This document shows positions 4,362-43,746 of a DNA stretch of 64,000 nucleotides, one piece after another. Under the pieces are notes generated by a model, which made no database searches, was not told the DNA's origin, and worked only from the letters and a program-made list of their open reading frames with translations. The stretch is from Prorocentrum cordatum (Eukaryota > Sar > Dinophyceae > Prorocentrales > Prorocentraceae). The stretch is taken from NCBI GenBank assembly GCA_963575745.1, contig CAUYUJ010016362.1, positions 124,001-188,000 of the forward strand, written 5' to 3'. How positions within the stretch are numbered: position 1 is the stretch's first letter; each line of letters begins with the position of its first letter. Position numbers and translations under genes: made by a program.

Positions 4362-4404
4362 CATGACAATGGCCGTGGGTGAACCACGGCGACTGCGCCC
4401 ACGT

Positions 4405-5096: not shown

Positions 5097-5211
5097 GGGT
5101 GGGGATGGGGAGGGGCATGTGGGGATGTAGTGTAGCTGGTTTGCTCAAAGTGTTAGCGCGCACTCATCGCGCCTTCTCGCGCTCGCTTGAGCTCCTCGCG
5201 CCTCCTTCGCG

Positions 5212-5688: not shown

Positions 5689-5793
5689 GTGGCGCACGGG
5701 AAGGTCATCGCGCTGTGCATGAGGTGGGCGCGTTCCGCACCAGGCGGAGCGCCGTCTTTCTAGGAGGATGATGATGATGATGATGAGGATCAC

Positions 5794-5954: not shown

Positions 5955-5956
5955 CA

Positions 5957-6112
5957 GAGGAGGAGGAGGAGGAGGAGGAGGAGGAGGAGGGAGAGGAGGA
6001 CCAGGAGGAGAAGCAGCACGGCCAGGGCGGGGGGGAGGGGGGTGAGGAGGGTGGGGGAGGGGGAGGATGAGGAGGGGGAGGAGGAGGAGAATGCGGAGGA
6101 GGATCGATGAGA
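5957..6112. repeat. GGA-rich microsatellite
   Basis: A purine-only run (GGA/GGGGA units) of about 155 bp abuts copy 2 of the TIR element. The complementary-strand and same-strand frames through it are low-complexity artefacts. Bases 6113-6427 show no coding sequence. Confidence 0.85.
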
Positions 6113-6427
6113 CGGATCTTGCCGAGCGATCTTGCCAAGCGAGCGCGGAGTTCCAGCCGCGCGCTTCTGCGTTAGACAAATGTTGCCTTCCACCGCCACC
6201 AGGCTCAGCTGCGAGTCTGACCCGCAAGCCCCCCGAACGGAAACGCATCCATGCAGCCAATCGGCTTGGCACGCACATGATATTGATGCCTTAAACCGAC
6301 ATCATGATGTTTTCCCATATACGCATTGCCATTTTCACTTTGTCACGCATGCGATGCGCCCTGCGCAAGTTGTGACGACCCATGCAGTCGTTCATGTTTT
6401 CCCTTTGTCAAGTGCGATCGGCATTCC

Positions 6428-11400: not shown

Positions 11401-11518
11401 CAGTGGCTGCGCGTCAACATGCAAGTACTTGCAACTACTTGCGCTCAGTTAGCGCAACTTGTAAGTTCCGAAACCAACTTGCTAAGTCTGCTAAATCTTA
11501 CAACCACCCAAGTTCACC

Positions 11519-11650
11519 ACAGTGGTCCGGGACCAGGGGGGTTCGCGACCGGGGTGGGGTCCGGGACCGCGGGGTGTCCGGGACAGGGGGGGTCCGGGAC
11601 CATGGGGGTCCGGGACCAGGAGGGGTCGGAAACAAGGGGGGTCCGGGAGG
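11519..11650. repeat. GGGGGTCCGGGACC minisatellite
   Basis: About seven imperfect units of 16-22 bp, each containing GGTCCGGGACC or a close variant and a run of 4-7 G. GTCCGGGAC is itself palindromic. It lies downstream of the transposase remnant. Confidence 0.8.
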
Positions 11651-11819
11651 ATCAGAGGTGGTCTGGCCCAGAGGTCCTCCGCGCCTTCGGATAACACTTC
11701 AAGTCTTGCACAGGCCTGGAGTCTTATGATGTAGGACTTCGGCCGCTGGCTGCTTACGCAGCCATTGGCTGCTTCTATAGGACTTGAAGTCCTATGCGCA
11801 AAGCTTGCGCACCGCTCCA

Positions 11820-12250
11820 GCGATACATGATACATTATACAGACTATATACAATAGTACGATAGTGAATACATAGTATAAGAGTATGTATATAGTACGAA
11901 TAGTATATATATAGTATGTATAGTATATGTAATGCATGGAATATGTATGTATATATAATAATAAAGGTATAGCATATATCTAGTCTATGTAATACATATT
12001 GTATATAATCTGCATATTACTTATTATACTGTGTATATAGTGTACATGTATTGTATAAATAGTGTACACTAAATATATTTTACATATATATAAATAAATA
12101 TTATAGTATATATAATCCATATAGTATATGTAGTGTGTGTAGTGCATGTGTATTACGGGGCATCTATCATTTTTGTTAAAAAAAACAATAAATATGTAGC
12201 AGATACAACATGTGTACAGCATAGTTAAAATTATATATAGTAAATATAGT
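11820..12250. other. AT-rich island in GC-rich surroundings
   Basis: About 430 bp made mostly of TATAGTATATG-like words with few G or C, bounded sharply by GC-rich DNA on both sides. Only short tyrosine/isoleucine-rich frames occur, so it is not coding. Candidates are a matrix-attachment or replication-associated sequence, or an old organelle-derived or microsatellite expansion. No organelle gene was seen in it. 12251-12777 holds GC-rich sequence with a (GC)n run near 12650 and no supported gene. Confidence 0.7.
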
Positions 12251-12777
12251 AAGAGTTAGTGATGTTGTACGTTATGCGTTCTCACATATGCATGGTGCTA
12301 TGCCATGCCAGTGCAATGCTATGCGGCGCGACTCTGCCATGCTACGCCGCGCTATGTCATGCCTTTCGCTTCGCTCGCTTTTAGCTGATTTTCAGTTCTT
12401 CTGGCTACCTTGGGACCCCCGCCCCTCAAGGCAGGTCTCGGCTTGGGTCGCCCTTCCTCCCCTTGAGGTCCCATGGAGTCCCTGCGCGCGCGTGCGTCTC
12501 GGGTCTGGGGCTTTCGGTTGGGAGTTTGGGGGCCGTGGCGGGTCTGCCGTCTGGGGATCGGGGGTGCCGTGTCGGGCCCCTCATGGGGCCTGGGGTGGTC
12601 TGCGGACCCTTCCTGGGGCCTGGGGTGGACCCTCTCGGGCCTTGGGGCGCGCGCGCGCGCGTGCTCGCGCCCGTGCGCGCGTGCCATCCGCGCCCGTGCT
12701 GGAGCCGCAGCTCGGCTGGAGCGTGGCCGCGGCGCCCTCGGCCGCCGCGGCGCTGGCCGCGTTGCCGGCCTGCGGGC

Positions 12778-14031
12778 ATGGCGTCGTCGCGAGCGGCGTC
12801 GGGCAGCAGCGAGAGGGCGGCGACAAGAGAGAGCTGCAGGATATTTTTTTTGTCGGGGCAAGGGTTGTGGAGGGCAGGGAGGATAGGAGGCATGGGATGA
12901 AAGGGCTAGGAGTGATCGGATGGAAGGGCAGGAGGGATGGGATGGCAAGGGCGCGGTGTAGCAGAGGGCCTCGCGAGGAACAACGGCCTCGAACTTCGAG
13001 GATCGAGGCATTGTGGCCATCGGGTGCCCCCCTCGCCACGGCTGGGCGCAGCTCGAAAAACTTATGCATTCCCCGCCCTCTCTTCTTCGACGCCACCCAT
13101 TAGCGGCCATTGCAGTGGCAGCACGCTCGCCTCGAACCTGACAGGATGGGGTTGGTCAAAATCCGCTCCTAGCGACCCCGTGGCGCTGGAGGCGGCGATC
13201 ATCCCGAGCGTGAACAAAGAGCACTTCCTGACCTACGGAATTGCGCCTGGCAAAGACCAGTTCGCGGCCAGGTGCAAGGAGGAGGTCGCCCACCACTTCC
13301 AGGCGTCGGTCGTCGTCGCCGCCGCCGCTGTCGTCGTCGAGTTTGAACTTTGAGATTCGATCGGGTTTCGAAGGTTTTTTTTGTTTTGGCCTCCTGAGGG
13401 CGCTCTCGTGGCCACGGCTGGATCCACCGTGATATTCTGGTCAGTCATGGTTACGCTGACGACGTTGACGATAGCGATGATGAGGACGACGACGATGATG
13501 CTGGTAGTGGTGGTGGTAGTGATGATGCCGTTGGCAGCGGTGACGACGATGGCGACGACGATGACGATGGTGGCGGTCGTCATTGCGACGGCGGCGATGC
13601 TGGCGCGCCCCCCCCCTCCCGCCCGTTGCGAGATGCTCGGCCGCCTCGAGAAGATTGCCCCCAACATGTCCATCAGCGAGCAGGCTGCTACGCTGGCGTT
13701 CACATCGATCGTGAAGAAGAAGGCTTCAGCATGGGGCGGGATGGATGAGGCAGCCCAGCAGTCATGGGCAACGAGCAACAGTGCGAGGTGGGCGGGGAGA
13801 ACTCTTCCATTCGCATCCTGATTCCCCGCCCCCCCTCCCGGCGGGCCCGCGGCGCCTGTGAGCACGTAGCCCTCCGTCCTCCTGGGGATTCGGGCGGCCA
13901 GGGCGGACACGGAGGAGGTTGAGGGGGTCGGGAGTGGAGGAGCGGATCGGATGGAGGGAGGAGGTTAGAGGAGGTTACGGAGGTCTGGAGTGGAACGGAG
14001 GAGGTTGAGGATGTCTGGAGCGGAACGGGGC

Positions 14032-14069
<38 letters not shown>

Positions 14070-15567
14070 AACAAAAAAAATACGGCCCAGGCTCCGCCCC
14101 ATGTGCCGGCACGTCTACGACGCGCACCGCAAAGAGAAAATCGGCGACAAGGTTCCTGCCTGGATGACTGAGTTGAGAGAGAAACAGAAAGCGATCGGCA
14201 TGGAGGTGGGCCCCAGGAGAGAGCGCGATGACAGCAGAGGTGATAAAGCCAGAAAAGACCACAGAACAGGCGAACACCATAGAGATGAAAAAGACTCGAG
14301 GAAAGAGAGTGGAGAGAAAGCTAGGAGGTCGCCCGCGTCAGATGATGATTCGAGCCGTAGGTCCAGCCGAAAGCGGAGGCGGAAGATAACCAAATCCAGA
14401 GAAGAGACACCACGTAGGCCCGTCGAGCTGGACTTCGACATCGGTTACAACCCTGATGACAAAGTTGCCACCAAAACATACCGAACGTCTGGTAGACAGT
14501 CTGGCAAGATCGTGACCACCCACGACATATTCAGAAAAGATCACCGTGCATGGATGTTCTGCAAGTTTGCGGGCAGTGATACAGAGCACGAGATTCCCAC
14601 TCTCACGGTGCACTCGTGGGAAAATCAAGGTGGCCAGCGGACCTCTGGGACCTCTGGTGCTGGCAAGGCCGCGGCGGGGGCTGGCACGTACTGGACGGGC
14701 GAGCTCGACGGCAAAATTGCGCGGGTGATGTATAAGAAGCTCTCCACCGAGGCCGACAAGTCAATCACATATGGATTGGTCATCAAAGAGGGTACGAGTG
14801 CTGGTGGCCAGAAGCTTCAGATCACTTACAAGTCCTGCAGCAACGACGTAGAGTTCGCAAAGCAACTAATGATAAAGCTAGCAAAGCAGTACGTGAATAA
14901 AGAGCTGGCTCACAGGCAGCTGATGGCAGAGCGCGATAAGGGGGTCGAGGCGTACTTGAAAAAGGTGGGAAAGGCCGCGGCCGCCTTACGGAGACCAGCA
15001 AAAGCAGATGACGGCGAGAAAGATGGCGACGAAAGCGCGGCCCCAGGAGAGAATAAAGATGATGATGAGGAGGAGGAGGGAGGTGAAGAGGAGGAAGATG
15101 GCGAAAGGGACGAGGAGGAGGAGGAGGAGGAGCAGGAGGGGCCTGAAGTGGCCAAGAAGCCCGCCGCCAGCGCGGGGAACGAAGATGAGGAGGAAGATGA
15201 GGACGAGGAGGAGGAGGGGCCCGCAGTGGCAAAGAGGCCCGCCGCCAAGCCTAAAGCGAAGGCTCCGATGAAAAGGCCCGCCGTGCTCCACAGGCCCGCA
15301 GCGGCGAAGAAGCCAGCTGGCAGGCAGGAGCCCGACGACGAGGAAGAGGGGGGGGAGGAGGAGGAGGAAGAGGCAGAGGAAGACGAAGAGGAGGCTGAAG
15401 AGGAGGAGGAGGAGGAAGAGGAGGAAAACGAGGAGTCAGAGGAAGAAGATGGAGATGAGGAGCAGGCAAAGAAGAAGAAAAAGGTGCCAGAGCAGATCCC
15501 CCCACCGAGCGGGCAGTCCTTGTACATGAGTCTGCTGAGGAAGAGCAGCGCGCAGGGGTGCGCCTGA
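12778..15567 (+). CDS. Acidic/basic repeat nuclear-type protein; four-exon model (607 aa)
   Basis: Model: 12778-12839, 13173-13302, 13633-13787 and 14091-15567, all in phase. Introns are GA-AG (least certain), GC-AG (a GT donor 6 nt later is also in phase) and GT-AG (13788-14090). Exon 1 starts MASSRAASGSSERAATRESC. Exons 2-3 give NKEHFLTYGIAPGKDQFAAR and LEKIAPNMSISEQAATLAFT. The last exon has an RS/KR-rich segment (SSRRSSRKRRRKITK). A globular part follows (YRTSGRQSGKIVTTHDIFRK, AWMFCKFAGSDTEHEIPTLT, GTYWTGELDGKIARVMYKKL). The tail alternates long D/E runs with KKPAA/KRPAA motifs. It is probably a chromatin or RNA-associated protein. It shares the K/R-P-A style of 6428-7975 but not its globular domain. 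Confidence 0.65.
13600..13632 (+). promoter_or_regulatory. Pyrimidine-rich intron 3' end
   Basis: CCCCCCCCTCCCGCCCGTTGCGAG precedes the exon that begins ATGCTCGGCCGC at 13633. It is one of several acceptors here with a C-rich rather than T-rich tract. Confidence 0.45.
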
Positions 15568-15997
15568 GTGGCGGGGCCGCACGCGGGGGAGCCGAGCGCG
15601 GAGCGAAGTGGCGCGGAGGTGAAATGCACTTCCGCTCGATCCCTGGTGGCTCCATTTTGAAAACGGCCCCGCTCCGTCCGTGTAACTGTTGCAAGCTTCG
15701 AAGCTGCAGGGTCAGAAATGGCAAGGAAGTCCCCCTCATCGCCCTTCCTTCCCCGTTTCCTCTCCGCCCCTCCTCCCCCTCGCTCATATCCCTCTTCCTG
15801 CCTCTCCTGTTCGCCCCTTCCATCAACTCCCATCGCCTTGCCGGCATCTGCCCCGTCGTGTCCCGTCGTGGCCCGTGCCGGCCCCATCTGTGGCCCACCC
15901 TGCCCTATCCCGCCCCGCCTCCAAACCGCATAGCCGTGCAACGTCGAGCAATCTTCTCGGTGACAGCGGCCCCTGAGGGAACAGGTGCAGCGGAGCG
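15568..15997. other. Intergenic gap between two head-to-tail genes
   Basis: About 430 bp between the TGA at 15565-15567 and the ATG at 15998. It holds a T/C-rich stretch (15725-15900) but no coding sequence I can support and no recognisable promoter. The large minus-strand frame across 14910-15941 is a shadow of the D/E-rich exon. Confidence 0.6.
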
Positions 15998-28545: not shown

Positions 28546-28559
28546 GAGCTCCCGTAGAG

Positions 28560-28930
28560 GATGATGATGAGGAGGATGAAGAGATAGGAGGAGTATGATG
28601 ACAATGAGAGTGATGAGGACGATGGTGATGAGGGTGATCATGATGATGAGGATGATGATGAAGATGACGGTGATGATGATGAGGATGATGATGATGGCGA
28701 TAGTGATGAGGATGATGATGAGGATGATGATGCTGAGGAGCATGATGATGAGGATCATGAGGGTGATGAGGAGGAGGAGGGATGACGAGTAGGAGGGCGA
28801 GTAGTAGGATAGAGAAGTGGGAGAGAGGAGGAGGAGGAGGAGGATGATGAGGAGGAGGGGGAGGAGGAGGAGGAGGAGGAGGACGTGGAGGAGGACGTGG
28901 AGGAGGAGGAGGAGGAGAAGGAAGAGGGCC
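28560..28930. repeat. GATGATGAGG microsatellite block
   Basis: About 370 bp of imperfect (GAT)n/(GAG)n units directly after the stop of the preceding gene. All six frames are low complexity. Confidence 0.9.
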
Positions 28931-30410
28931 CCGCTGACCCAAGAGCGAGTCCGCAGCTCGGGGAACGATTAAATTGCGCACGCCGCCTACAGGATCGGGC
29001 GGTCCATCAACGGGGGGTCATGGGGCCCTGAAGGGGCCGTTTTGCGGCCTTACATGGCCTCTGTCGGGCTTTGGGGGGCCCCCTGACGAGCCCTAGTGGG
29101 CTGTGTTTTTTCTTTCGTGTTTCGGACCGCCCCAAATGCCTTTTTTGATTTTTTTGGAGACCTCCCATGATGGGCCGCCCGCTCCTGTCCGCCCCCCTGG
29201 CCTCCTTCCTTCCTGGCCCCGCTGCCCCCTCTACGCCCTCCCTCCCGCTCCTCCCTCCCGCTGCCCCCTACACCCTCCCTTCTCTCTCCTGCCTCTCCTG
29301 CCTTTCCTCCCCCTCCCTCGCGGGGCAGGCGGTCCTCGGCCGCCTCGTTGGTGTCGTCGCGCGCCCGCGGCGGGCGCGGATGGCACGGCGCGCGCGCGCG
29401 TGCAACGTGCAGGGCGGGCGCGCGGATGGGGAGCGCATCGTTTTCAAAACGGGGCCCCCGCCATAAAGCCGACTATCGTCCTGAATGTCTTGTAAGAGCT
29501 GGATGGCGGCCCCGTTCCCGTCAGGAATGGCGCCCTCGCCTTTTCGCCGCGCAACCTTGCGAAATGCGCGTTTCAATGGGGGTGGTGGAGGGCATAATTG
29601 TTTAAATATCATAATTAGAGACCGCATGTTGTGCATCAACACGTTGATAGCACAGCATTGCGCCGACTTGCATGAACGCTTCGGTTTCTAAGCCGAGCGT
29701 GCTCCAAGCCAATGAATATATTACCATTGGCTGTGAAGTACGAAATCACCCAATTGAGTTGCACCGACTTGAAACAGAAAAAGGATCATTGCACAATCGT
29801 GTTTGCATATATGCGTGCACGCACTGTGCATGGTTAAAATTTGAACGTGTTGTCGTGCAACATACGAACATGCACAAATGGCAACGACTAGTACATTGTA
29901 CATGCACAGCACACACAATTACATAATGCATATATCATACATATGAAAATATGACATGTTCTAGGTGCGTAAAACGTTACACCTATATACACCAATCATA
30001 CGCATCACACATCTATGTGTATGTGTGTTGTATGTATATGATATGACATGTTATATAACACTTCGCGGCTTACATAGGACTTCACTGCTTAAACAGAACT
30101 TCAAGTGTTGTGCTGTTACACTCAAGGCCAAGACAGCACTTGACTTGCTAGCTGAGACCGACAAGGACCTCTGGGGAGGGGTTGGGTCCCGCACCTGCCC
30201 CATTGGTGGGCTGGCCGGAGCGTGCCCCCACCGCCACCGCCGCCACCTACCCCGCCCCCGGAGGCGGGGCCAGGTCCCGGTTGGGGATTCGCAGCCTGGG
30301 TCTTCGAGTTCGCGGGCTACGGTGCGTGGGTGAGTTCCCCCGACCACACTGGCACGATCCGCACGAGCGGCGGATGGATTGGATCCGCCATCGACCGACT
30401 GGGCGTTAAG
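28931..30410. other. Left flank of the DIRS-like element
   Basis: 28980-29110 resembles the GGGGCC-rich repeat family. 29170-29480 is C-rich with no supported gene. 29590-30120 is distinctly AT-rich and ends at CAGAACTTCAAGTGTTGTGC. A 5' terminus of the DIRS-like element should lie here, but I could not match it to the repeat pair at 43201-43746. The frame is open from before 30222, but the first ATG in frame is at 30411. Confidence 0.5.
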
Positions 30411-33400
30411 ATGCTCGGGTACTGGTGGGAGACCGCGGTCCTTTGCTTCGCCCTAGGCATCTTCACGTTCGTGTTGGGTGCCCTGGCCTTCATCGTCAAC
30501 GCCGCAGCCCAGCCTATGCTGTGGGCAGCCGGGGGACTCCGCTGGGCGTGGCACCAGATTACCCGGTGCTGCCAGCGACGCGGAGGCGATGGGCCCGGCG
30601 CCCATCTCCCCCCACCCCCTCCGACTCCCTTGCTGGCGCGCTGGCGCGGGCCGGGCTTGGGCGGCGTGGTGGAAACGGAGTTCTACACAAGGGGGGTCCG
30701 CGGCCGGGGAACCAATCGGGCATGCAACCACGTGCTTCTGCGCAAGCACGGGCAGGTGGCCTGCATCAGCTGCAACTTCGCGGACCGGTACCGACTGGAC
30801 CGCCACGGGCTCAACATCGAGATCGGGCAGGTTCTGGGGTGCACCAGTCGTAAGTGGCGGCTGAACCTCGAGGAGACAGGTAACGTGCATCTATGCCGTG
30901 CCGTCGAGTGCGCCTCCTGTCCAGTGGCGCACCCCATGCATGTCGACCAGTACGCGGCCATTGACCACACACAGATCGTGGACTTGGCTGAGCACGGTAA
31001 GGCCGCAGCCTGCCGGGCAGTCGGCGTGGGACTCCGGAAGGTATTCGGGGTCGTCAAGTGGCTGCTCTGCCCACCCTGGTCGGCACTTGGATGGCTGTGC
31101 CGGGGCCGGCCGGAGCCCCGCTACATCACCGACGCCGCGGGCTATCGCCGCCTGGGCATCGATTCGGAGAGCGAGGTGGAGGCGGAGGAGCGCCCCTGCC
31201 AAGCCGCGCAAGTTGGGGCGCAGCTCGCAGGTGGCGCACGCCCCCTCCAGCCGGAGGGGTGCGGCGACCGAGGGATGCAGGAGGCGACTGTTCTGCTGCA
31301 GGAGGATGCAGAGGTGTCGGACGTCCCCCGGCCGGGGCACTGTCTCAATGCACAGGTGCACCTCTGCGCCCACCATGCGCAGAAGTACCGGTCTACCCTG
31401 ATCGGCCGCAAATGCAGCCCCCCCACTTGCCTCCGCATGGCGAAGGGTAGCTGTGGGGGGGGCCCGATGTGCGGGGAACATCTCCGACGGGACGAGGGTC
31501 ACACCGTGCGCGTCGAAGCGACGGTCCAACCGGGGATCCTCGGGGGTCTGCGCCGTCGCATGCGAGCGCGGGCTCCAAGCCCCGCCAGGGCGCGCGATTG
31601 GACCGCGCATGCCGCCGATGGGGTTGGCGTAGCGCCCGGGCCGGTCTACCCCCCGCCCGCTGCACCGCCGCCGCCAGCAGTGGCCCCATCCGTCGATGTT
31701 GAGCCCTCGGGGGCGCAGGCCCTAGCCTCTGGGCCGCAGCCGCGTCGTTCGCGCTCTGCGGAAGCAAGGGCCTGCGGACGTTCACGGTCTGCCGACCGCG
31801 GAGCCCCGGGCGATCGGATCGCCCATCACGGGTGGCTTCAGGAGCCCTTACTCGCGAAGGTCTGCCCGATACTCCCGGGCGACCCTCGGGGAGCCGAGGA
31901 GGCGTATGGCGCGCCCCCGGCGAGTCCTTGGTATATTCTATTGGGGGAATGCGAGGGGCTCGACGTACGGGGCACTGGCGGGGACGCACGACTTATCATC
32001 GGGACTAGCCTCGAGGGCGTCAGGGTGGAGGTCCCAGCCAGCGAGGTCGTATGGCACCCCCCTCCGCTGGAGGACGGGCGCTACCCGATAGATTGGATCA
32101 ATCGGCTGCTGTACGAGGTCCCCCAAGGCGCGCGGGAAGTGGGGTTGCGTGTCATCGCCCACCACATCCCGCAGGATCTGCTGGCGATGTTACGCCAGGA
32201 GCAGTGGGACGGTGTGGGCGTGGAAAGCGCGAGCGGCTGGAGGCGGCGCTACCTGACGAGCACGGGGCGCCAGCAACTGCAGCACGACCCAGTGTGCACA
32301 CTCGGCCACCATCGGCGGGGCGGCGCGCAGGGGGCGCAACCTGCGCCCGGGATGGAGGGCTTGCCCCGCCCAGCCCCCGTGGCGGCACCGTCGCGCTTGG
32401 CAGCGGCCGCCGCCGGCGTGAGCGAGGATGCTGAGGAGCCCGACCCCCTCGAAATATTCATGGATACCTTGCGAGCCGAGGATCTCAAGGGACGGGGGGG
32501 CCAAGCGGCGGCCCTCAGCGCATTAGGTATGACCGCGGACCTGCTCGGGATTCCGCTTGATCAGGCGGAACGGCAGCTGCGGCGGAGAGTCGCACAGGTG
32601 GCTGCGGCGGGCCCACCGGGGCCCGATCTGGAGCGCGCCCTCGCGGATTTGGAGGATGCGCAGCTGGAAGCGCGCGCGCGGGAGCGTGCTGCGGCCGCCG
32701 ACAAGGTCCCCCTGCAGGGCAGCCTCTCACGCGAGGGGTCGCGGAGCCGCTCGGCGCGGGGGCGGGATCCCAGCCCGAGGCAGGGACCCCGGCGCGAGCT
32801 CTTCGGGGCCATGCTCCCCGTCCAACCCACGGGCCCACGCCGTGGCTTGCTGGGCGATCGGGACCGACTGGCACGCGATGGACGCGGGGGGCCCGCTCGT
32901 GGGGCCAACCCGCTCCTCGACGGAGCTTCGGTCCTTGGGCACCTCACTGGCCAGACGCCCCACGGGGGTGGCCTGGGTGGGGAGCGAGCCTGGGGTCCAG
33001 ACCACGCCGGGGCGGCGGGCGCCCTGGGCGGGCTTACAGCCGAGGCCGAAGCCCAGATCATCGAGCGCCTGGATCGCCAGAACCGCCTCACCGAACGCCA
33101 CGTCCTCGCCGCCGAGCGGCAGGCGCGGGCCACCGAGGGCGACAAGAAGGCCCGGGGCACCAGGGCGGGGATCGGTCGGGACGAGGAACTGGATCTTTAC
33201 ATAGCCAGGGGATGCAACACCTTCGTGGTTGAGGCCTGCGAGGGGATCACGGGGAAGGACTTGTTCGACTCCCTCAAGCGCATGTGTGCGCACTCCAAGA
33301 GCACGCTCAAGACGATCGGGTTTCCCTGCCTGGTTACCAACCGTGTGGCGCACGGCTACGCGGCGCTCGCCTTCGGGACGGGTCCACACGACCTGGCAGT

Positions 33401-36400
33401 GGACGACTGCGTCCCCGCGCGTGACGAGGACTTCGACGGCTACAGGCTCCCTGTGGACGACAAGCTGGAGCCCCGCCAGCGGCCCGCCACCCGCATGGCG
33501 ACCTGGTTCAAGAGGGCCCGGTGCGAGATCCAGATGTTCGAGTCCATCGTAGGGGTCGTCACCGAGGGCGGGGCCGAGGTCGGCCCGGTTGCCTGGGACG
33601 CCGACGGGCTGATAGGCCGCGGGTCCTATACCTTCTGGGACGGGGACACCCGCATCCAGTGGGACTTCCTCGACTACCGGGACCGCCTCAGCCCTACAGA
33701 GGAGATGGGCCAGGCGATGGGCCTGGAGGTGGGCGATACCGAGGAGCGGCAGTGCCTGCTACTGCACGTAGCTGCTGGGGTGCTCCTGCTACGCGCGGGC
33801 GAGGGCGCGGGTGAGCCCAGCTCGGACGCGGTGCAGCAGTTGGCCGCGACGTATCGCCATGCACTATGTGAGGAGGCCCACGAGGCACTTCGTGCCCTGG
33901 GCGACTCCCCACCGTGGATCACGGCCATGGAGGCCGATGTCCGTTCCTACGTCCATGATGCGGTGCACCCGCACCACGACAAGGACTATCGCTGCCTGGC
34001 AGCATGCCCCGTCACCGACCTCGACGCCGTCACGCTCCAGGTGCACCGAGTCAACGGCAGTGGGCGCCTATGCGTGGACCACCTAATGGGGACGGGTGTC
34101 GGCGCGGAGGATCAAGTTATTCCGCTCCTGATCTGGCGTGGCCATATGCGCGTCTTGCGCCCACGCTCCCACACGGAGGCGGCGGCCCTAGGCCAGCGCT
34201 GGGGGCACGCAGGACGCCTGTCCCGCGAGATCGTGAGTGTCGGCTGGCGCGAGATGCTCGACGAAGGTCCAGACGTTGAACCCACCGTCCCAGGCAAGAG
34301 CGCGCCCTGCACCCACTGCAAGGCAGCGGAAGGTCGGGCGGGCCGCGCAGTGGGACGCGCGCCAGCCTCGTTCGGGGAACATCCAGCCGACGTCCAGGCA
34401 CGCCTCCTGGAGGCGAACGCGATGCCAATTCGACACGACCCCGCGTTCGCGTACGGTTTGATCGCCCAGGAGGTGTACGCCGGATCGGGAAACTGGTCGG
34501 CTGCGCTTCGAGCCGAGGGCATCCGGGTGCTGGAGCCGATCGAATACTACGACGACCCTCTCCGAGAGTCCGGCCCACGGCCGGATCACGACACCCTCGA
34601 CCCGGCTGTTCGCGCGCGCCTACAGGAGGCCGCACGGACCCCCATGGGCCCCGATGTGGCCAACGTTTGGTGCTGGGGTACCCCGTGTGGCTCGTGCACC
34701 GACCTCGGGCTCATGACCCAGCCTGGCGGGACCCCGCAGGGAACCCGCACGTGGGAGCACCCCGAGGGGGACGGCTCCAAGGAGTTCGAGCTCGTTGGTA
34801 ACAGCCACACTCAGTTCACGTGCGACACCTGCCGCATCCTACACGACGCCGGCAAGGAGTTTCTCATCGAGTCCTCCTGCCCCTCGGGCCGCTACCCCAA
34901 GATCTGGGACCAGGCCCCAATGCACGAGCTGCGTCGAGCGACTGGGGCCATGATCGTCCCGATCCACATGTGCGCCTGGGGTAAGGCCCCGTCCGACGCG
35001 CCAGAGAGCCGCTATCGCAAGGGCAGCTGGTGGCTCGTCAGCCCCCGGCTGTACCTGCGCGCTTTGTTGTTGGCGCGACGTTGCCCCCGTGACCACCGCC
35101 ACGTCGAGCTGAAAGATCACGTGCCTGGCTCGGGCATTAAGCGCACCAAGGAGGCGCAGGTTTGGGCCCCCCGGCTTTGCACTGCGTGGGCAAAGGTGTT
35201 GAAAGGGGCCTATCACCGCTGGTCGGTGAGCCAACTGCGTCGGCAGTTGGCACCTATATGGGAGGATGGCCGGGGGGCGTCCCCCAAAATCGCCCGGGCG
35301 GAGGCGCCCGGGCGCCTGCAGGGCGTCGACTTCACTGGAATCGAGCGCCTACAGGCTTCAGGGGACGGCTCAAAATGCGGTAGGCTCAGCCCAGCCATGC
35401 ACCGAGCATTGGCGGGGCTTCCTAAGCCCCCGTTGGGCGAGACACAGGGGGAGGTGAGTGCGGGCAAGCCTCGACCCCCTTGCGAGGACCCGGCCAGAGA
35501 TATCGCGGAGGACCTCGACGGGTGCAGCCCGGCGGAGCTGGCCACGGTCTACCTGGCCTTCTGCGCGGAGCACCCTGAGTACGACCCCGAAGCCATGCGG
35601 ACCCTGGTGGGTCTGGGGGATCGGCTCCTCCAACGGACGGGGTCCCTGAAGGAGGCGGCCGCGCTGCTTAGGCGCGCGCGCCACGAGCGCCTGGGCAACC
35701 CCCTTCGGGGTGTCCTGGGGGACAAGGTGCGACGGTGTTTAAGCCGAGAGCACTTCGAGTACGTCCGGGAGCTGGCGGAAGGGGGAGCATCCGCGCGGCG
35801 GGGCGCGCCACGGAGGCGCGAGCGAGCCCAGCCGTACCCCAGCGTGCGAGCCCACATCGACGAGGCCTACCAGAAGGTATGGGCGGATGTGACCTGGGGG
35901 ATCGTCTTGGTGGCTTCCCAGGCGGCAGAGGGTTTTTTGACGGAGCTGGTGGAAGCCCCCCTGGGGAGGGTCCCAAAGCAGCTACCGGACAGAACCCTAT
36001 CGTCCGAAGGGCGTATGATCCACGCGATGCTCTCGGCCAACGCCGCCACACACAAGCGCGACCACCCGCCTGCCGTCCAGCCACGCCATCGGCAAGTGGC
36101 GAGGACGGCGGTATGGCATCGCGCGCGCCATCCCGGAGCGCGCCTCCTCTGCGCCAAGCGGGACGTCTCGCGGGCCTTCAAGTGGCTGGACATCGCCCCG
36201 GCGGACGTCGGGGACTTTGGCACTTCACTACCGGGGGCCCACGCTGGCATCGAGGGGGACGTCAGAGTCGTTTACCTAGCCATGGTGTTTGGGTGGACGG
36301 GAGCCCCAGGCAATTTCATGATGCTCGCCCTGGCGGCGAGGGAGCTCCACGAGAGCTATCGGCCTGGGGGGCCGCACTGGCACGACACCACCCACTTCCA

Positions 36401-36635
36401 CTCGGAGTGGCTTATGGATGACCCTGTGGTGGTGGAGCCCGACATCGGGGTCCGGCCATGGATGGCCTGCGACGCATTGGATGCTTCCATACGTGAGGTA
36501 CTCGGGTCCGAAGCAGTGAACGTCAGCAAGAGGGACGCCGAGGGGGAGGCCTCCACCACTCAGATTAATCTATCTGGGGGCTCAGCATGGACTTCGAGCG
36601 CGAGCGAGTTGGACTCCCGGAGCCCAAGGCCATGA
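30411..36635 (+). CDS. DIRS-like ORF1: N-terminal region, MTase-like domain, RT
   Basis: First in-frame ATG at 30411 (MLGYWWETAVLCFALGIFTF); the hydrophobic stretch that follows could span a membrane. A Cys/His-rich region (ACISCNFADRYR, CRAVECASCPVAHPMHVDQY) and a second (KCSPPTCLRMAKGSCGGGPM) may bind zinc. An R/S-rich segment sits near 31730 and another near 32740. The MTase-like domain has VYAGSGNWSAALRAEG, then WCWGTPCGSCTDLG (Cys codon at 34686), then FLIESSCPSGRYPKIW. RT motif A is KRDVSRAFKWLDI (Asp codon 36162), B is YLAMVFGWTGAPGNFMML and C is EWLMDDPVV (Asp codons 36417 and 36420). The frame ends at 36635. The RT thumb (WGLSMDFERERVGLPEPKAM) is found in the next frame from 36575. 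Confidence 0.8.
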   Translation: MLGYWWETAVLCFALGIFTFVLGALAFIVNAAAQPMLWAAGGLRWAWHQITRCCQRRGGDGPGAHLPPPPPTPLLARWRGPGLGGVVETEFYTRGVRGRGTNRACNHVLLRKHGQVACISCNFADRYRLDRHGLNIEIGQVLGCTSRKWRLNLEETGNVHLCRAVECASCPVAHPMHVDQYAAIDHTQIVDLAEHGKAAACRAVGVGLRKVFGVVKWLLCPPWSALGWLCRGRPEPRYITDAAGYRRLGIDSESEVEAEERPCQAAQVGAQLAGGARPLQPEGCGDRGMQEATVLLQEDAEVSDVPRPGHCLNAQVHLCAHHAQKYRSTLIGRKCSPPTCLRMAKGSCGGGPMCGEHLRRDEGHTVRVEATVQPGILGGLRRRMRARAPSPARARDWTAHAADGVGVAPGPVYPPPAAPPPPAVAPSVDVEPSGAQALASGPQPRRSRSAEARACGRSRSADRGAPGDRIAHHGWLQEPLLAKVCPILPGDPRGAEEAYGAPPASPWYILLGECEGLDVRGTGGDARLIIGTSLEGVRVEVPASEVVWHPPPLEDGRYPIDWINRLLYEVPQGAREVGLRVIAHHIPQDLLAMLRQEQWDGVGVESASGWRRRYLTSTGRQQLQHDPVCTLGHHRRGGAQGAQPAPGMEGLPRPAPVAAPSRLAAAAAGVSEDAEEPDPLEIFMDTLRAEDLKGRGGQAAALSALGMTADLLGIPLDQAERQLRRRVAQVAAAGPPGPDLERALADLEDAQLEARARERAAAADKVPLQGSLSREGSRSRSARGRDPSPRQGPRRELFGAMLPVQPTGPRRGLLGDRDRLARDGRGGPARGANPLLDGASVLGHLTGQTPHGGGLGGERAWGPDHAGAAGALGGLTAEAEAQIIERLDRQNRLTERHVLAAERQARATEGDKKARGTRAGIGRDEELDLYIARGCNTFVVEACEGITGKDLFDSLKRMCAHSKSTLKTIGFPCLVTNRVAHGYAALAFGTGPHDLAVDDCVPARDEDFDGYRLPVDDKLEPRQRPATRMATWFKRARCEIQMFESIVGVVTEGGAEVGPVAWDADGLIGRGSYTFWDGDTRIQWDFLDYRDRLSPTEEMGQAMGLEVGDTEERQCLLLHVAAGVLLLRAGEGAGEPSSDAVQQLAATYRHALCEEAHEALRALGDSPPWITAMEADVRSYVHDAVHPHHDKDYRCLAACPVTDLDAVTLQVHRVNGSGRLCVDHLMGTGVGAEDQVIPLLIWRGHMRVLRPRSHTEAAALGQRWGHAGRLSREIVSVGWREMLDEGPDVEPTVPGKSAPCTHCKAAEGRAGRAVGRAPASFGEHPADVQARLLEANAMPIRHDPAFAYGLIAQEVYAGSGNWSAALRAEGIRVLEPIEYYDDPLRESGPRPDHDTLDPAVRARLQEAARTPMGPDVANVWCWGTPCGSCTDLGLMTQPGGTPQGTRTWEHPEGDGSKEFELVGNSHTQFTCDTCRILHDAGKEFLIESSCPSGRYPKIWDQAPMHELRRATGAMIVPIHMCAWGKAPSDAPESRYRKGSWWLVSPRLYLRALLLARRCPRDHRHVELKDHVPGSGIKRTKEAQVWAPRLCTAWAKVLKGAYHRWSVSQLRRQLAPIWEDGRGASPKIARAEAPGRLQGVDFTGIERLQASGDGSKCGRLSPAMHRALAGLPKPPLGETQGEVSAGKPRPPCEDPARDIAEDLDGCSPAELATVYLAFCAEHPEYDPEAMRTLVGLGDRLLQRTGSLKEAAALLRRARHERLGNPLRGVLGDKVRRCLSREHFEYVRELAEGGASARRGAPRRRERAQPYPSVRAHIDEAYQKVWADVTWGIVLVASQAAEGFLTELVEAPLGRVPKQLPDRTLSSEGRMIHAMLSANAATHKRDHPPAVQPRHRQVARTAVWHRARHPGARLLCAKRDVSRAFKWLDIAPADVGDFGTSLPGAHAGIEGDVRVVYLAMVFGWTGAPGNFMMLALAARELHESYRPGGPHWHDTTHFHSEWLMDDPVVVEPDIGVRPWMACDALDASIREVLGSEAVNVSKRDAEGEASTTQINLSGGSAWTSSASELDSRSPRP

Positions 36636-39600
36636 AGATGCGTTTCCTACTGGCGGAGCCGGAGCTGAGCTTCGGCTGCCGCATGGTACGGCTGCGAACC
36701 GCGAGGGAGCTAAGTGGGCTCGGCCAGTTCTGCGCCTGCGAAGCTCCAGCCCTGAGCCTGGAGCTCCCAGCGGTCCACCGGATGCTGTCGGGCGACCCAG
36801 GCCAGGCCTACGTCCACCCGCCGGGCGACCCCGAGATGGTAGAGGCTGCGTGGGACGATTGGCACCAGACCCTGGATTGGCTGCGCGTCTGCTTTGAGAT
36901 GCCTGTCGAGGGTAACTTCGAGACCTCCTTCGAGGGCCTGCTAGGCCTTCGCGAGGCCCTCGCACTTCCGGGGGCGCTCGGCAAGCTGCGATGGCTGGGA
37001 GGCGATGCCACCGTAGATCGGATCGGTGCGCTGGACTGGTCCTCGCGCGAGTACATCGTGGCGGAGGCGGCTCCCTACCTGGAGGCGCTCCGCTCCGCCC
37101 CCGGGGTCACCTGGCAGGGGGAGGGGGAGATCATCGCGGTGGTCGAACTCCTCTGCCTGATAGCCTTGGCGGCCGAGAAGGGCCCGGACTGGTTCCAGCT
37201 TCTATTGCCGTACGTCACTGACAACAGTAATGTCAGCCGCTGGCTGCGACGCCGCCGGGCACGGAACGCGGTGGCGCGCCACCTGCTTCGAGTCCTGGCC
37301 ATGCTGGAGCTACGGTACAAGTTCCGGGTCCTGGACGGACTTTACTTACGGACTTACCACAACGAGCTGGCCGACTTCGTGACTCGAGCCACGGTGGAGG
37401 AGGTGCGCCAGCGGATGGCGGAGGCCGGATGGACCGAGCTGTCGCCGGCAGCACCGCGGGGCGAGCTGGTGGAGGAGGCCGCCCAGCGCGAGCTGCGGAT
37501 GCCAGGGGACGATGGGCCCTGGCGCGCGGCTGCACTCCAAGTCAAGGGAGCCCGGGAGGCCCTACCACGCTACGCCCCCCTGCAGGTCGAGGGGGCGCGG
37601 CTGCTGGAGGTGGGAACCGCGTGGCCCCCCTTCGGGGAGGCATGGGAGAGCCTCGGCGGGTCGGCGCTGCTAGCGCCGTGGGATGTCGGTGACCGATGGG
37701 GCCCGGACGACGGCGACCACCCCAAGGACCCCACTGGGGCCCCGCGGATCCGTTGGCTGTGCGCGTCACTATCGGAGGACCCCGGTGGACGCGAGGCGAC
37801 GGGCCTGGAGCGGCTACTGATCACCACCCGACCGCTGGCCGTGTTGCTCGACGCCCCCGCCAACTACGCCGCAGTGCGGCTAGGTGCGCGCTTGCGGCGC
37901 CTCGGCTATGTGGCACTCTCCCAGGAGACGCGCCTTCTGTGCACCCACTTCGGCGACGTCACGGCACGCGCGCGGGCGGTCCAGGTTTGGGGTTGCGGAG
38001 AACGGGTTCGGGCGCCGAGCCTCATACCCCCCCTGGGGCAGCCCTGCGTGGAGCCACGCGGCCTCTGCCAGCTCTGGAAAGAGGCAGGGCGGCCACCGCT
38101 GGATGAGCTCCGCCTGGACCTCAACAACGGCACCTTGCTCGTGGACCCTCGGATCTCGACGACGGGGGATCGCATGATGCCCTGGCCGCGCGGCACATGG
38201 CAGCCCGCGGGAGGCGGGCGGGCCCAGCGCGTGGTGATTCATGATCCGCGCGGGCCCTGCCATACGGCACGGGCGAAGCCCGACCCGTTGAAGGGCTATG
38301 CGAACACCCTGATCCTGGAAGGGTCCGAGGGCGGCTGGACCGTGCGAGCCCTGCGCCCGAAAGAAATCTGGTGCGCCCAGGGGGGCACGGCGGAGCTGTG
38401 GGATGCCCTGGGCCTTGGAGGTATGCCGATCGCCGAGCGCATGCGGCAGGCCGCCCGTGCACTCCCGCGCCGCACGGCCCGCTGGGTGCTCCAGTGGGCG
38501 GAGCGTCTGCTGAGGCAGGCCGTAGAGGCAGCAAGCGCAGGCGAGGCGCCCGGGGCGCGCGCTGGCGTCGGACCCGACTACGACCGACTCGCTAACGACG
38601 AGATGGTTAAGCTGTGGCTAAAGGCCTGGCTTCAGGCCCCCGACCGCCCAAGCGGGCCATTCGAGGCTGCGCTGGAGGCGGGGAAGACGACGGACGACGC
38701 CGCTCGGTTGGCGGACCAGCTCGACCCCCCTGCTACCGCGCGGTCTACCGCAGCAGGGGAGGACGGGGCAGGCGGGGAGCGGGTCGGGGCGGTGACCTTC
38801 GCTGCTCCGGAAGGCGCGGGGATGCCCAGGCCGAGCGCCACGGACGGCGCGGGCGGCGAGGCGCGCCCCCCGCGCAAGACCCGCCGGCGTACCCGCAGTG
38901 CCCCTGCCCCCGCGCTGGTGAAGCCCGCCGCCTGGCGGTACGCCGGCGGGGGCGCCCCGAAAGGGGTTCAGGATGAACTCACCGACCCTCGCGAGCTGGA
39001 CGCGACCGCCACCGAGGCGATGCTGGCCAAGCTTGCCGAAGGGACGCGGGCTAACTACAGCGCCGGGTGGCGTAACTGGGTACTCTGGCGGAGGCTCCGA
39101 GGCCGGAGCCCGTACCTTCAGCGGGAGACTCGGGACGCCCGCCTTACGGATGAGGATGACCTCATCCGGTATGTCGTGTACCTGTACAAGGTGATGAAGA
39201 GGCGGGCCACGACCATCCGCCAGCGCCTGTTCGCCATTCGGTATGCCCATACCCTGGCAGGGCTTGGGGACGTGACCTCCGATCGGCGCCGGCTCTGGAC
39301 CACGATCGAGGGACTCCGCCGCTGGGACGAAAAGGCGAAGCGGAAGCTGCCGGCCACGCCCCGGATGTTGCGCTGGCTCCGCGAGTACTTGTTCGCCCAC
39401 GGAACGGCCACGCGCCGAGAGGCGACCATCCTATGGGCGGCGCTTATGACGGGGTACTTCTTCATGCTCCGCGCGTCGGAGTATTTGGTCCAGGAGGACC
39501 GCTCCTGGAGCATGGGACGGGTGGTGCGTGGGCAGGACGTGCAGGGGCTGCGCGGGGGTACACCCAGCGCATGGCTCAGCGACTGCGACGAGGTAGTGCT

Positions 39601-40200
39601 GACGATCACGTCGTCCAAGACGGACCAGTTTAACGCAGGTTGCGTACGCAACCATTACCGTTCGGGGGTGGAGTTGTGTGTCGTGGACGCACTTGCCGAC
39701 CTCCAGAGGGAGCTGCCGGACCGGTTTGGACGAGGAACCGAGGCGGGGCTCCCCCTGTTCCGCCGGCCCGATGGCCACCCGATTATGCGGGAGGAGGTGC
39801 AGGGGCTCCTCCAACTCGCGGCTGCCGCCTGCGGCGTGGACGCAGGCCAGATGGGATCCCACTCCCTGCGCATCGGGGGCGCGACGGCGTTGTACCACGC
39901 CTGTCGCGACCTGGAAGCGGTCAAGAGGTTCGGGAGGTGGTCCACGGACGCCTTCCACGGATACCTCTGGGAGGACCATCGGCGTCAGGCTCCATTCGCC
40001 CGAGGCATGGCGGAGGGCCACGCCTTACTGGCCCCGGACGCCCGCGGTGATGACGGCGTCGCGGCCGGCGCCCGCCCCGACCGGTTGGCCGGGAGCGACC
40101 CGCCCCCGTTTGGGAGCGACCTGAGGCCCTCGGAGCGCCCGGCCTGGGCGCCCGGGCGCCCCCCCTGGGCGCGCCCTTCGGCGCGAGCAGGGTCAAATAT
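36575..40200 (+). CDS. DIRS-like ORF2: RT end, RNase H, MTase-like region, tyrosine recombinase
   Basis: Begins as the RT thumb one frame back from ORF1 (TGG at 36575; first ATG 36587). RNase H acidic residues are visible: Asp at 37004 (LGGDATVDRIGALDW), the Glu of AVVELLCLIA, Asp at 37220 (YVTDNSNV) and Asp at 37373 (YHNELADFVTR). A region follows that resembles a C5-type MTase: LLEVGTAWPPFGEAWE, then LAVLLDAPANYAAV…RLRRLGYVA, TARARAVQVWG and VRALRPKEIWCAQGG. No clear PC catalytic motif is seen, so it may be inactive. The recombinase has R at 39470 (LRASEYL), K at 39617 (SSKTDQ), H-x-x-R at 39860/39869 (HSLRIGG), W at 39938 and Tyr at 39962 (FHGYLW). The frame stays open to 41473, but element-like sequence stops near 40100-40200. 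Confidence 0.8.
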
Positions 40201-40516
40201 GGAGGGGGAAGGAGAGGAGGGGCCGGTGAGATACGAGCCAGGGCGAGGAGTTAGCGGGCGTGTTGGGAAGCAGCAGGCGGGTCCTACAGGTGTTCGTTTC
40301 GGGGCGGGGGCTTCGCGTTGCGGGGGTATCCCGGTGGACCTCTCGCCCTCGACCCCCTTTTCGCTGCCGCCCCCGATCGCCCCAGGCACGCCCACCTCCT
40401 CTTGGTCCTCTCATCCGCAGCCATCTCCCACTCCAGAGCGAGGCGCGCGAGCAGCGCGCGCACCCCAGCCTCGCGCGCCAGCCGCGCCTCCGCCCCGCGC
40501 TTCGGCAGCGTGCATC

Positions 40517-42695
40517 ATGGGATTCCTGGTGGGCCTGGTGGCCCCGGACCAGAGCAAGGCGCGCGGCCATGACTACAGCATCATGGCGGTGAACCCCCTC
40601 GGCGTCGTCGTCTCGGGGGCCGCGCTGTCGGACGAGCTCCGGAGTGCCGCCCACAACATCCTGTACACGGTGGTGGACGAGCTGGACAGCGAGGACCTCG
40701 TCGAGGTGGTCAACCACGACCACGAAGCAGCCCCGTGCATCGCGGCGGCTTGCCTGGCCGCGGGGGCGAGCGAGGACCACGGCCAGCTGGTGATCGTCGA
40801 CGGCAAGCGGGGCGCGTGGGGAGTGGGCGCGGGGCCGAATATCAAGGTCCAGCGCCAGGCGGCCAAGCTGGCGCTCGCCTTGGCCCAGTTCCAGGGGCAG
40901 CCCATGCCGGAGCTCCGCGAGCTCTGCAAGAACAACAGGGGGCTGCTCGACATGATGCGCACGGTGGACGCGGAGGCGGTCGTGGAGCTCACCGACGTGG
41001 AGGACGCCTCGAGCAGGGGCGAGGGGAGGTCGACCCCGGCCCCGGTCCTCGAGCCGGGCGAGGACGCCGTGACCGCGGCGCTGGCGCGCGCGGCCATCCA
41101 GGCTGCAGCGCGGCGCCAGAGCAAAGGCGCTCCAGTGGAGCGCCCGCGGCCCCCGCGGTCCCCGGGGCAGGAGCGCCTCGCCGAGGAGGTCCGCAAGCGT
41201 GAGAGGCGCCCTGCGCCCTTGCGCTCGCCCTCGCGCGCGAGGCGCCGCGATCGCGAGCGCGATGAGCCTCGCGATCGCGGGCGCAGGGGGCGGGGGGAGG
41301 GGGCCGTCCTGAAGCCCAAGACGGGGGGCGCCCCCCCGAAGGCCGACATCGTGAGGCGCGAGGCCGTCCTGAAGCCCAAGAGCGGTGGGGCGCCGCCGCG
41401 GTCCTTCGAGGTGAAGACTGAGGTGGAGGAGACGGCGGCGCCAGCGCCAGCCGCGCTCGAGGAGCCGCCGTAGGCGCGAAGAGGAGCAGCGCCAGGGCGC
41501 CCAGCAGCAGCCCAGTGACCAGCACGACGAGGGCGAGTCCATCATCCGCATCGAGCGGGTACCGCACCACGTCGACGCCGAGGTGGTCAGGCAGGTGGTC
41601 GTGCCCTCTGGGGTCGTCAAACACACCGCCTTCCTGTACGACCACCGCCACAAGCGGGAGCCGTGTGTGCTCGTGGAGTCCCAGCGCCGCGCTGATGCAA
41701 AGCGCGCGCGGGAGTGCACGAGGTCGAACTATCGGTTCTACAAGACGGACCCGTGCACAGTGGTCACGGAGTGGGCGAGCCGGCCTCGCGGCCCTGACCC
41801 AGGCAGCGACGGGGAGGATGGCCCGACCATCCAGCCGCCTGCCTGCCCGACGTGCGCTCTCAAGATGCGCTGGAGCTCCTTTGACCCGGGAGACGGCTGG
41901 GGTTGCGAAATGTGCCCCGCGGGCGGAGCTAACAGCGGAGCCCTGCGGTGGCACTGTAAGGGGTGCGACGTGAGCTACTGCGAGGCTTGCCGCGTCGCCT
42001 TCGGCAAACCCAAGACGGTGGTGGAGAAGGCCCGGCAGAGCGGCCACACCGTGCGGGAGGCGCCGGGCCCCAGTGCCGGCCACGGAGAGCGCCCCAGCAC
42101 GGGTGCCGCGGGTGCGGGGGCTGAGGGGGGCCGCCCGCCAGGCGACCTCAGCTGGCCCAAGCGCGAGAGGTCGCCCAGCCGCAACCGGCCCAAGCGCGAG
42201 AGGTCGCCCAGCCGCAGTCTGGCGCGGGACCCAGCGTGGGCGCGGCGCGGCGACACCCCCCCCGGCCGCACGCGGCGTAAGACCGGGAAGCACGCTGGGC
42301 AGCTTCGCGCCCCCCGCGGCGGCTGGTACGAGCAGGAGAAAAAGCGGCGGCGTGCTGCCGCTGCGGAGGCTGCCGCGGGCGGGGGTGGGATCCCAGCCTG
42401 GCGCGGCAAGGGCGCGGGCGACAAGGGCGGCAAGGGCGGCAAGATCAAGGGCAAGCACTCCGGCAAGGCCGCCAAGGGCACCAAGAGCGGCGGCAAGGGC
42501 GACAAGAGCGGCAAGGGCGGCCACTCCAAGGGCGACCAGGGCAGCCGCGGCCGGAGTGAGCGTGACAGGCCCAGCGCGGGCGGTCGCGCATCGAGGGGCG
42601 GCGATGGCGGCAGCCCCCGGGGCCACAGTGAGCGCGGCGGAGACCGCAGCGGCGACGAGAGCCGCGATCGTCAGGGGAACACGCCATCCATCTAG
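40517..42695 (+). CDS. Hypothetical protein with Zn-finger and RS/KG-rich tail, one frame change
   Basis: An ATG at 40517 (MGFLVGLVAPDQSKARGHDY) begins a new-looking protein inside the frame left open by the retroelement. It has a globular part (YSIMAVNPLGVVVSGAALSD), a block WGVGAGPNIKVQRQAAKLAL of a type I associate with small nucleic-acid-binding domains in dinoflagellates, then an R/E-rich segment and two LKPK(T/S)GGAPP repeats, with TAG at 41471-41473. The next frame, open from before 41472, continues (ESIIRIERVPHHVDAEVVRQ). It carries CPTCALKMRWSSFDPGDGWG…CEMC…CKGCDVSYCEAC, a Zn-binding cluster, then RERSPSR repeats and a KGGKGGK tail ending at 42695. An intron near 41400-41500 or one indel would join them. 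Two genes is the alternative. Confidence 0.55.
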
Positions 42696-42818
42696 GCGTG
42701 GAGCACCCCACATCCCGACGCCAGCGCCCGCGGCATCGCGGGCTGCGGGCTGAAGACGGCGGCCCATCGAGGCGGACCGCTACTCGGGACAGGCCCGTGA
42801 GTGAGCCGGCTTTCCTCT

Positions 42819-42886
42819 CAGCCTACAGTACGCAGGTGGCGCCTGCGATCCTTTCAGCCTACGGTACGCAGGTGGCGCCTGCGATC
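42819..42886. repeat. 36-bp tandem duplication
   Basis: CAGCCTACAGTACGCAGGTG… at 42819 is repeated at 42855 with one or two changes. Each copy contains GGTGGCGCCTGCGATCC. It lies 120 bp after the stop of the preceding gene. 42887-43200 shows no coding sequence. Confidence 0.85.
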
Positions 42887-43200
42887 CTCTTTCTTTTGAG
42901 GATTTTGAACGTTGCGCGCACGTCGCGCGCTTCCTGGACCCGGCCGCGCTGCGCGTCCTGCGCGCCGCGCGGTCGGGGCCACACTTGCGCTCTGCGCCCG
43001 GCGCATCATGCGCCGCTCTTTTATTGTTCTTTTGCGCGCTTCGCGCACGCGCCGCGCCCGCGCTCTGGGTGCGCGGGGCGCGGAAGGCCTCAAGGTTGCA
43101 GGCAAGTGGCCGCGCGCGCGAGGCTCTTGCGGCCTCAGGATCCGCCCTCGCACTTCGGGCTGGGCGTCCCCGCGCGCGCGGCTGCGCTCTCTCTTCTCAT

Positions 43201-43394
43201 GGCCAAGCGGCCGCAGGCGTGCCAGAGCGCGAGCGCGCGGTCCGTCGGGGCCCACGCGCTCGCGTCGGCCGACGCCCAGGTGGAGATGCGCGTCGCCACG
43301 CTGCCATGAAAATACCATCGCCCAGTCCTGGTCCCTCTCTCGTCCCCTCCTCTCCTCCTCTCCCTCCGTTGAGTGCGCGCGTATCTCACTTAAC
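43201..43394 (+). repeat. Long direct repeat, left copy (R1)
   Basis: GGCCAAGCGGCCGCAGGCGT… to …GTATCTCACTTAAC. It recurs at 43536-43746 at about 95% identity apart from an ~18-bp insertion in the right copy. Both copies include ATGAAAATACCATCGCCC and a (CTC)-rich stretch. Confidence 0.9.
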
Positions 43395-43443
43395 TTGTAT
43401 AGTCTGATTGGTTGTAGACTGCAGGTTATGTGGGAGGGGGTGT

Positions 43444-43482
43444 GGGCTCAGGTAGCCATTTTGGGTCCGTAGCGTTCGGCTC
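43444..43482 (+). other. Spliced-leader-like relict
   Basis: 43452-43464 is GTAGCCATTTTGG, a 13-base exact match to the core of the dinoflagellate spliced leader. Directly before it is GGGCTCAG, resembling the leader's 3' end. Directly after it is CCGTAGCGTTCGGCTC, resembling a decayed second leader. Tandem leader relicts are known marks of mRNA-derived (retroposed) genes in dinoflagellates. It is too degenerate to be an SL RNA gene, and no splice donor or Sm site was seen. Confidence 0.5.
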
Positions 43483-43535
43483 TGGCCGACGCGCGGGCGC
43501 CCACCTACCCCGCTTTGCTCCCAGACGCCTGCGCG

Positions 43536-43746
43536 GGCCAAGCGGCCGCAGGCGTGCCAGAGCGCGAGCGCGCGGCCCGTCGGGGCCCACGCGCTCGCGT
43601 CGGGCGTGGGCCGTCAGGGCCTCATGCCCAGGTGGAGATGCGCGTCGCCACGCTGCCATGAAAATACCATCGCCCTGTCCTGGTCCCTCTCTCGTCCCCT
43701 CCTCTCCTCCTCTCCCTCCGTTGAGTGCACGCGTATCTCACTTAAC
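43536..43746 (+). repeat. Long direct repeat, right copy (R2)
   Basis: Second copy of 43201-43394, separated by a 141-bp spacer, with ~18 extra bases around GCGTGGGCCGTCAGGGCCTC. Immediately after its shared end (CTTAAC) the decayed copia coding sequence begins. Confidence 0.9.

Follow-up and report, generated by a model that had tools for sequence, protein, structure and literature searches.

DIRS elements make their complementary DNA (cDNA) by reverse transcription and insert it by means of a recombinase. As far as the excerpted text of the source goes, SymbioDIRS-Dnmt3 of Symbiodinium (de Mendoza et al. 2018) is a DIRS-like element with repeats arranged A-coding-B-A-B and a Dnmt3-type domain in Pol; this domain belongs to PF00145 and has conserved key residues, the recombinase is encoded in a separate frame, and two domain orders occur (PMC5890265). 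DIRS1-like elements are described, in excerpts of the same paper and of another, as carrying in Pol, downstream of RNase H, a region that resembles Dam (N6-adenine) methyltransferase (PMC3266345, PMC5890265). The capture of methyltransferases by retrotransposons is already known. The present analysis concerns a window of 64,000 nucleotides from the dinoflagellate Prorocentrum cordatum (assembly GCA_963575745.1, contig CAUYUJ010016362.1, positions 124,001 to 188,000 of the forward strand), which contains one damaged copy of a DIRS/PAT-like retrotransposon with a tyrosine recombinase, ~15.6 kb long when complete. Its coding part has one methyltransferase-like region, MT1, ahead of the reverse transcriptase (RT) and another, MT2, that follows RNase H and precedes the recombinase; we somewhat favour a reading in which MT1 would modify the cDNA or RNA of the element itself and MT2 would be its non-catalytic partner.

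The MT1 peptides pointed out in a sequence-only reading of the window (VYAGSGNWSAALRAEG at 34473, WCWGTPCGSCTDLG at 34668 and FLIESSC at 34860) are located at the places indicated there, in the frame of positions 30156-36635. The C5 (cytosine-5)-methyltransferase-like region with a Pro-Cys pair, which that reading had placed before RT, is borne out: TPC is unchanged in 29 of 29 copies of the element (the window and 28 others, a non-random set, mostly leading entries among the 148 scored copies described below or copies picked for long frames), and the region is strongly constrained. IESS is also unchanged in all 29; SS, not NV, follows the glutamate, which was equated with that of motif VI by eye. 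The structure prediction suggested as a check leaned towards a methyltransferase fold, in a low-confidence model, and the fold matches of this model (Foldseek, pdb_via) include the RNA methylases Spb1, FtsJ and RlmO; a Rossmann methyltransferase fold of MT1 is moderately supported. An hhalign comparison with a small C5 profile gave a marginal score for MT1 and nothing for MT2; the hmmsearch with this profile over seven regions gave scores only for the MT1-containing relative P0001 (-3.2 bits) and for the recombinase control (-3.1 bits). MT1 has no PHROG match, no match in prokaryote genomes and no target-recognition domain visible by eye.

A first look at the same genome yielded 1992 candidate copies of MT1, 148 of which were scored; their identity is 97-100%, 147 of the 148 are stop-free, and in 18 MT1 lies within a frame of at least 4,761 codons. 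Eight whole copies were fetched, six of them picked for long frames; these six contain a single frame of 4,775-4,778 codons, and the other two are broken, with longest frames of 2,783 and 3,267 codons. The polyprotein runs gag-like / MT1 / RT / RNase H / MT2 / tyrosine recombinase / zinc-finger tail, in agreement with the order from MT1 to the recombinase noted earlier. Each of the 29 copies, all of one family in one genome, has both MT1 and MT2, and a copy lacking either region, named beforehand as the case that would speak against the arrangement, was not encountered among them. Since the scored copies are 97-100% identical and both regions occur in every copy of the set, the arrangement is no accident. 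The element family is abundant and little diverged, with one giant polyprotein. Four relatives from other records each span one half only, P0001 and P0002 corresponding to MT1 with its upstream part and P0003 and P0004 to RT, RNase H and the start of MT2; the joining of MT1 and MT2 in one frame is demonstrated within the family of the window element in this genome. The proposal of the sequence-only reading that MT1 is an extra domain, gained later, is conjectural.

The ratios of nonsynonymous to synonymous substitution rates (dN/dS) were calculated against copy C37 and are given in the order C13105, C17241, C9446, window and C3025; C3025 is too little diverged to carry weight, and the comparisons have branches in common. 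The ratios are 0.08, 0.05, 0.04, 0.08 and 0.32 for MT1, 0.03, 0, 0.02, 0.05 and 0 for RT, 0.04, 0.07, 0.14, 0.11 and 0.18 for RNase H, and 0.08, 0.05, 0.09, 0.08 and 1.0 for the recombinase. Frame-breaking indels among the 29 copies number five in RT, three in RNase H, two in MT2 and none in MT1; with its low ratios and 29 of 29 copies unbroken, MT1 is therefore constrained like RT and the recombinase, and purifying selection is evident. MT2 (0.27, 0.19, 0.16, 0.17, undefined) is constrained about as much as gag-like region 700-1300 (0.13, 0.10, 0.17, 0.17, 0.20) and linker 2281-2480 (0.09, 0.10, 0.19, 0.16, 0), and more than linker 3386-3530 (0.31, 0.32, 0.31, 0.30, 0.57) and the tail (1.03, 0.50, 0.34, 0.35, 0.52).

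The MT2 peptides also lie where they had been noted, in the frame of 36569-41473 (LLEVGTAWPPFGEAWE at 37601, TARARAVQVWG at 37961, VRALRPKEIW at 38342). By eye, the motifs can be assigned as LLEVG (I), SLSEDP (IV), LLDAPAN (VI), DVTARARAVQVWG (VIII), VRALRPKEIW (IX) and LPRRTARWVLQW (X). The earlier remark that this region lacks Pro-Cys holds, SLSEDP occupying that place unchanged in the 29 copies; in P0003 and P0004 the sequence continues past RNase H as far as the beginning of MT2, with SLSQDP in P0004, so the missing Pro-Cys is not due to decay of the window copy. The full MT2 region has one PHROG match among 38,880, the C5 family phrog_116, which is weak (E 0.044, or 0.011 with other ends); four intact, near-identical copies give E 0.022-0.025 over profile positions 341-503. 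Phage C5 enzymes (five of five) cover positions 136-501 of phrog_116 in their matches, which places the MT2 alignment in the C-terminal half of the domain; the N-terminal half of MT2 alone finds an unrelated tail family at 0.48 and nothing else in PHROG. By these sequence matches, the putative homology of MT2 to C5 methyltransferases is weakly supported. No match to MT2 was found among the best 8000 candidates of proteins of ~500-1,600 amino acids. Matches of ribosomal eL43 to MT2 in a search of PDB sequences (E 0.018) were judged to be due to chance, as was phage contig L001, the single match when viral contigs were searched with MT2, MT1 and the recombinase.

Several results weigh against the favoured reading. 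MT1 matches no Pfam family at E<=10, PF00145 included, and MT2 has no methyltransferase match in Pfam or NCBIfam; the structure model of MT2 is uninformative, being too poor for a fold search, and its C5 match is as weak as stated above. The rate at which MT2 evolves is two to four times that of MT1 and at least that of the gag-like regions: MT2 is kept, yet its conservation does not mark it as an enzyme. The MT2 results would be expected if MT1 were the sole methyltransferase-type domain and MT2 an unrelated structural or linker region resembling C5 motifs by chance, an alternative that we consider rather unlikely; the only PHROG match of full-length MT2 is a C5 family, whereas RT, RNase H and the recombinase have no PHROG match. 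A motif-order scan also put five of the six MT2 blocks (IV, VI, VIII, IX and X) in order at the places chosen by eye, but 23 of 400 shuffles were as good, which is non-significant, and the control did not pass (z 3.3 for RNase H), so the scan is evidence for neither region; it did not place MT1 motifs VI and VIII, nor MT2 motif I, at the positions chosen by eye.

The mutation pattern bears on what MT1 may do. Private C>T changes amount to 21.7 per 1000 CpG sites, only slightly above the 17.2 at other cytosines, and the observed/expected CpG ratio is 0.97; a clear methylation footprint is absent on both counts. This speaks against heavy, permanent CpG methylation of inserted copies and suggests a step at the cDNA or RNA level instead; the mark would then be transient or lie at sites other than CpG, or DNA would not be methylated at all. 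The last option corresponds to another alternative, about as doubtful as the previous one, in which MT1 and MT2 derive from methyltransferases and do not methylate DNA, serving for nucleic-acid binding in the polyprotein or, in the case of MT1, acting on RNA like Dnmt2 or an rRNA methylase. The missing target-recognition domain of MT1 and the RNA methylases among its fold matches fit this alternative; the Pro-Cys and glutamate kept at the likely C5 catalytic places in 29 of 29 copies would be unexpected from pure binding, and expected from Dnmt2-like RNA methylation.

Under the favoured reading of an MT1 active on the element's own nucleic acid with MT2 as partner, the element would replicate by reverse transcription, and its recombinase would insert the cDNA, probably in circular form and without target duplications, to judge by the repeats and the type of recombinase. 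MT1 would be a compact Rossmann methyltransferase keeping the catalytic Pro-Cys and glutamate; tethered to RT, it would most likely modify the cDNA or RNA of the element. MT2, having lost Pro-Cys, would most likely be a binding or activating partner. A more specific version, by analogy with DNMT3A-DNMT3L, is a long shot: MT1 would be catalytic without a target-recognition domain, and MT2, a dead C5 fold possessing one, would guide or activate it, this built-in pair of a single polyprotein methylating its own cDNA between reverse transcription and insertion. The conservation of MT1 together with an MT2 devoid of the catalytic residue, in many near-identical copies, makes the putative roles of catalysis and scaffold accessible to separate study.

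Features of the retrotransposon copy (positions in the window)
Feature	Positions	Strand	Remarks
First open frame	30156..36635	+	gag-like region, MT1, most of RT
Junction of internal deletion	33518..33621	+	~1.3 kb missing relative to full-length copies; frame open across junction
MT1, methyltransferase-like domain	34422..35190	+	motif-I-like YAGSG, TPC, IESS
Reverse transcriptase	35700..36632	+	KRDVSRAF, GWTGAPG, WLMDDP by eye; frame changes near RT end in window copy
Second open frame	36569..41473	+	RT end, RNase H, MT2, recombinase, start of C-terminal extension
RNase-H-like region	36650..37480	+	GGDAT, TDNSNV, YHNELAD by eye; conserved in P0003, P0004
MT2, C5-methyltransferase-like region without Pro-Cys	37550..38530	+	SLSEDP at motif IV place
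Tyrosine recombinase	38960..40120	+	PF00589 E 2.3e-4; MLRASE, SHSLRIGG, GRW, FHGY by eye
C-terminal extension	41415..42692	+	RRM-like segment (by eye), B-box-like zinc finger, KG/RS-rich tail
Repeat B1	43201..43394	+	split direct repeat
Repeat A2	43395..43497	+	99% identical to 5' end A1 of copy C37
Repeat B2 and element 3' end	43536..43746	+	split direct repeat

According to blastn comparison with other copies having common ends, the window copy spans 30175-43746 on the forward strand; it is 5' truncated, starting at element nt ~654, and reaches the 3' end of the element. The extent of 30411-40200 assigned in the sequence-only reading lies inside the element but falls short of it, and therefore misses the C-terminal extension and the repeats. 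Full-length copies have split direct repeats arranged A-coding-B-A-B, as in DIRS elements of the PAT type: in copy C37, A1 (nt 1-105) is 100% identical to A2 (15260-15364) over 105 nt, and B1 (15051-15259) is 99% identical to B2 (15401-15610) over ~210 nt. The window copy carries B1-A2-B2 at its 3' end and lacks A1. The shared 5' end (TTGTATAGTCTG...) is found in eight of eight whole copies and the shared 3' end (...ATCTCACTTAAC) in six of them and in the window, the alignment of C13105 stopping earlier and that of C9446 entering Ns. By eye, the 40 bases on either side of the six copies whose two ends are present show no target-site duplication. Together with the split direct repeats and a tyrosine recombinase in place of a DDE integrase, this upholds the assignment to DIRS-like elements.

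The internal deletion of the window copy lies near 33560, and a frame break lies inside RT, which continues from ~36632 into the second frame; a programmed frameshift was ruled out, as P0004, P0003 and intact copies have RNase H in frame with the end of RT. Pfam gave no RT or RNase H match in the window element, and the motifs of both, conserved in P0003 and P0004, were recognised by eye; RTs of Symbiodinium DIRS elements are reported, in the excerpted text, to align poorly with Pfam (PMC5890265). The recombinase match to PF00589 (21.4 bits) is below the Pfam cut-off of 27.1; the catalytic R, HxLR, W and Y were found by eye. The B-box-like zinc finger (PF22586, E 0.012) is also below the cut-off, and the RRM/zinc part has dN/dS of 0-0.14. 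All other Pfam matches in these parts of the element have E values of 0.25 or more, as expected by chance.

Some further observations concern this copy and its family. The N-terminal part of the polyprotein contains a strongly hydrophobic, membrane-like stretch at 30429-30512 (ETAVLCFALGIFTFVLGALAFIVNAAAQ), unusual for gag, and degenerate GAT/GAG-rich triplet repeats are located at 28557-28937, upstream of the truncated 5' end. Repeat A2 includes, at 43452-43464, the 13 bases GTAGCCATTTTGG, identical to what we take to be the core of the dinoflagellate spliced leader; they are perhaps a relic of trans-splicing captured by reverse transcription. Among the private differences of the 29 copies over element nt 160-14400, 199 of the 546 of which come from C9446 alone, A>G (128 of 2322 A sites) and T>C (115 of 1963 T sites) strongly exceed C>T (82 of 4699) and G>A (103 of 5256), alike on both strands. 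Mutation is usually biased the other way; rates are high at GTA (26/193) and GTG (63/511). RNA editing was ruled out as the source of the A>G differences, since T>C is equally frequent; 5-hydroxymethyluracil, present in dinoflagellate DNA, is a possible cause, though the excerpted report saw no sequence preference for it (PMC11071213).

The closest known relative of the family is SymbioDIRS-Dnmt3, with which it shares a dinoflagellate host, A-coding-B-A-B repeats, a tyrosine recombinase and a C5-methyltransferase-type domain in Pol, and from which it is set apart by description: the window family has two very divergent regions, with PF00145 unmatched and MT2 lacking Pro-Cys, and its recombinase stands in the same ~4,775-codon frame, followed by a zinc-finger tail. 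The least probable reading of all, in which the family would simply be SymbioDIRS-Dnmt3 in a further dinoflagellate host and have no noteworthy second methyltransferase domain, accounts for the shared element class, repeats and cytosine-methyltransferase-type domain in Pol but not for these differences from the excerpted description, which has a PF00145 domain with key residues and a separate recombinase frame (PMC5890265). With DIRS1-like elements, as excerpted, the family has in common RT, RNase H, the tyrosine recombinase and a methyltransferase region after RNase H; that region is Dam-like in DIRS1-like elements and C5-like here. DIRS1-like elements are given as shorter than 6 kb, with inverted repeats and three frames, against a length of 15.6 kb, a single frame and split direct repeats in the window family, which has one more methyltransferase-like region ahead of RT. 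In the open-licence papers listed and the excerpts consulted, no element carrying two such regions is described, and the double arrangement appears to be new to DIRS-like elements. In DNMT3A-DNMT3L, an active C5 domain is paired with a non-catalytic C5-like domain, the two being separate host proteins; the window family likewise has one C5-like region with Pro-Cys and one without, both in a single polyprotein, where their interaction is putative.
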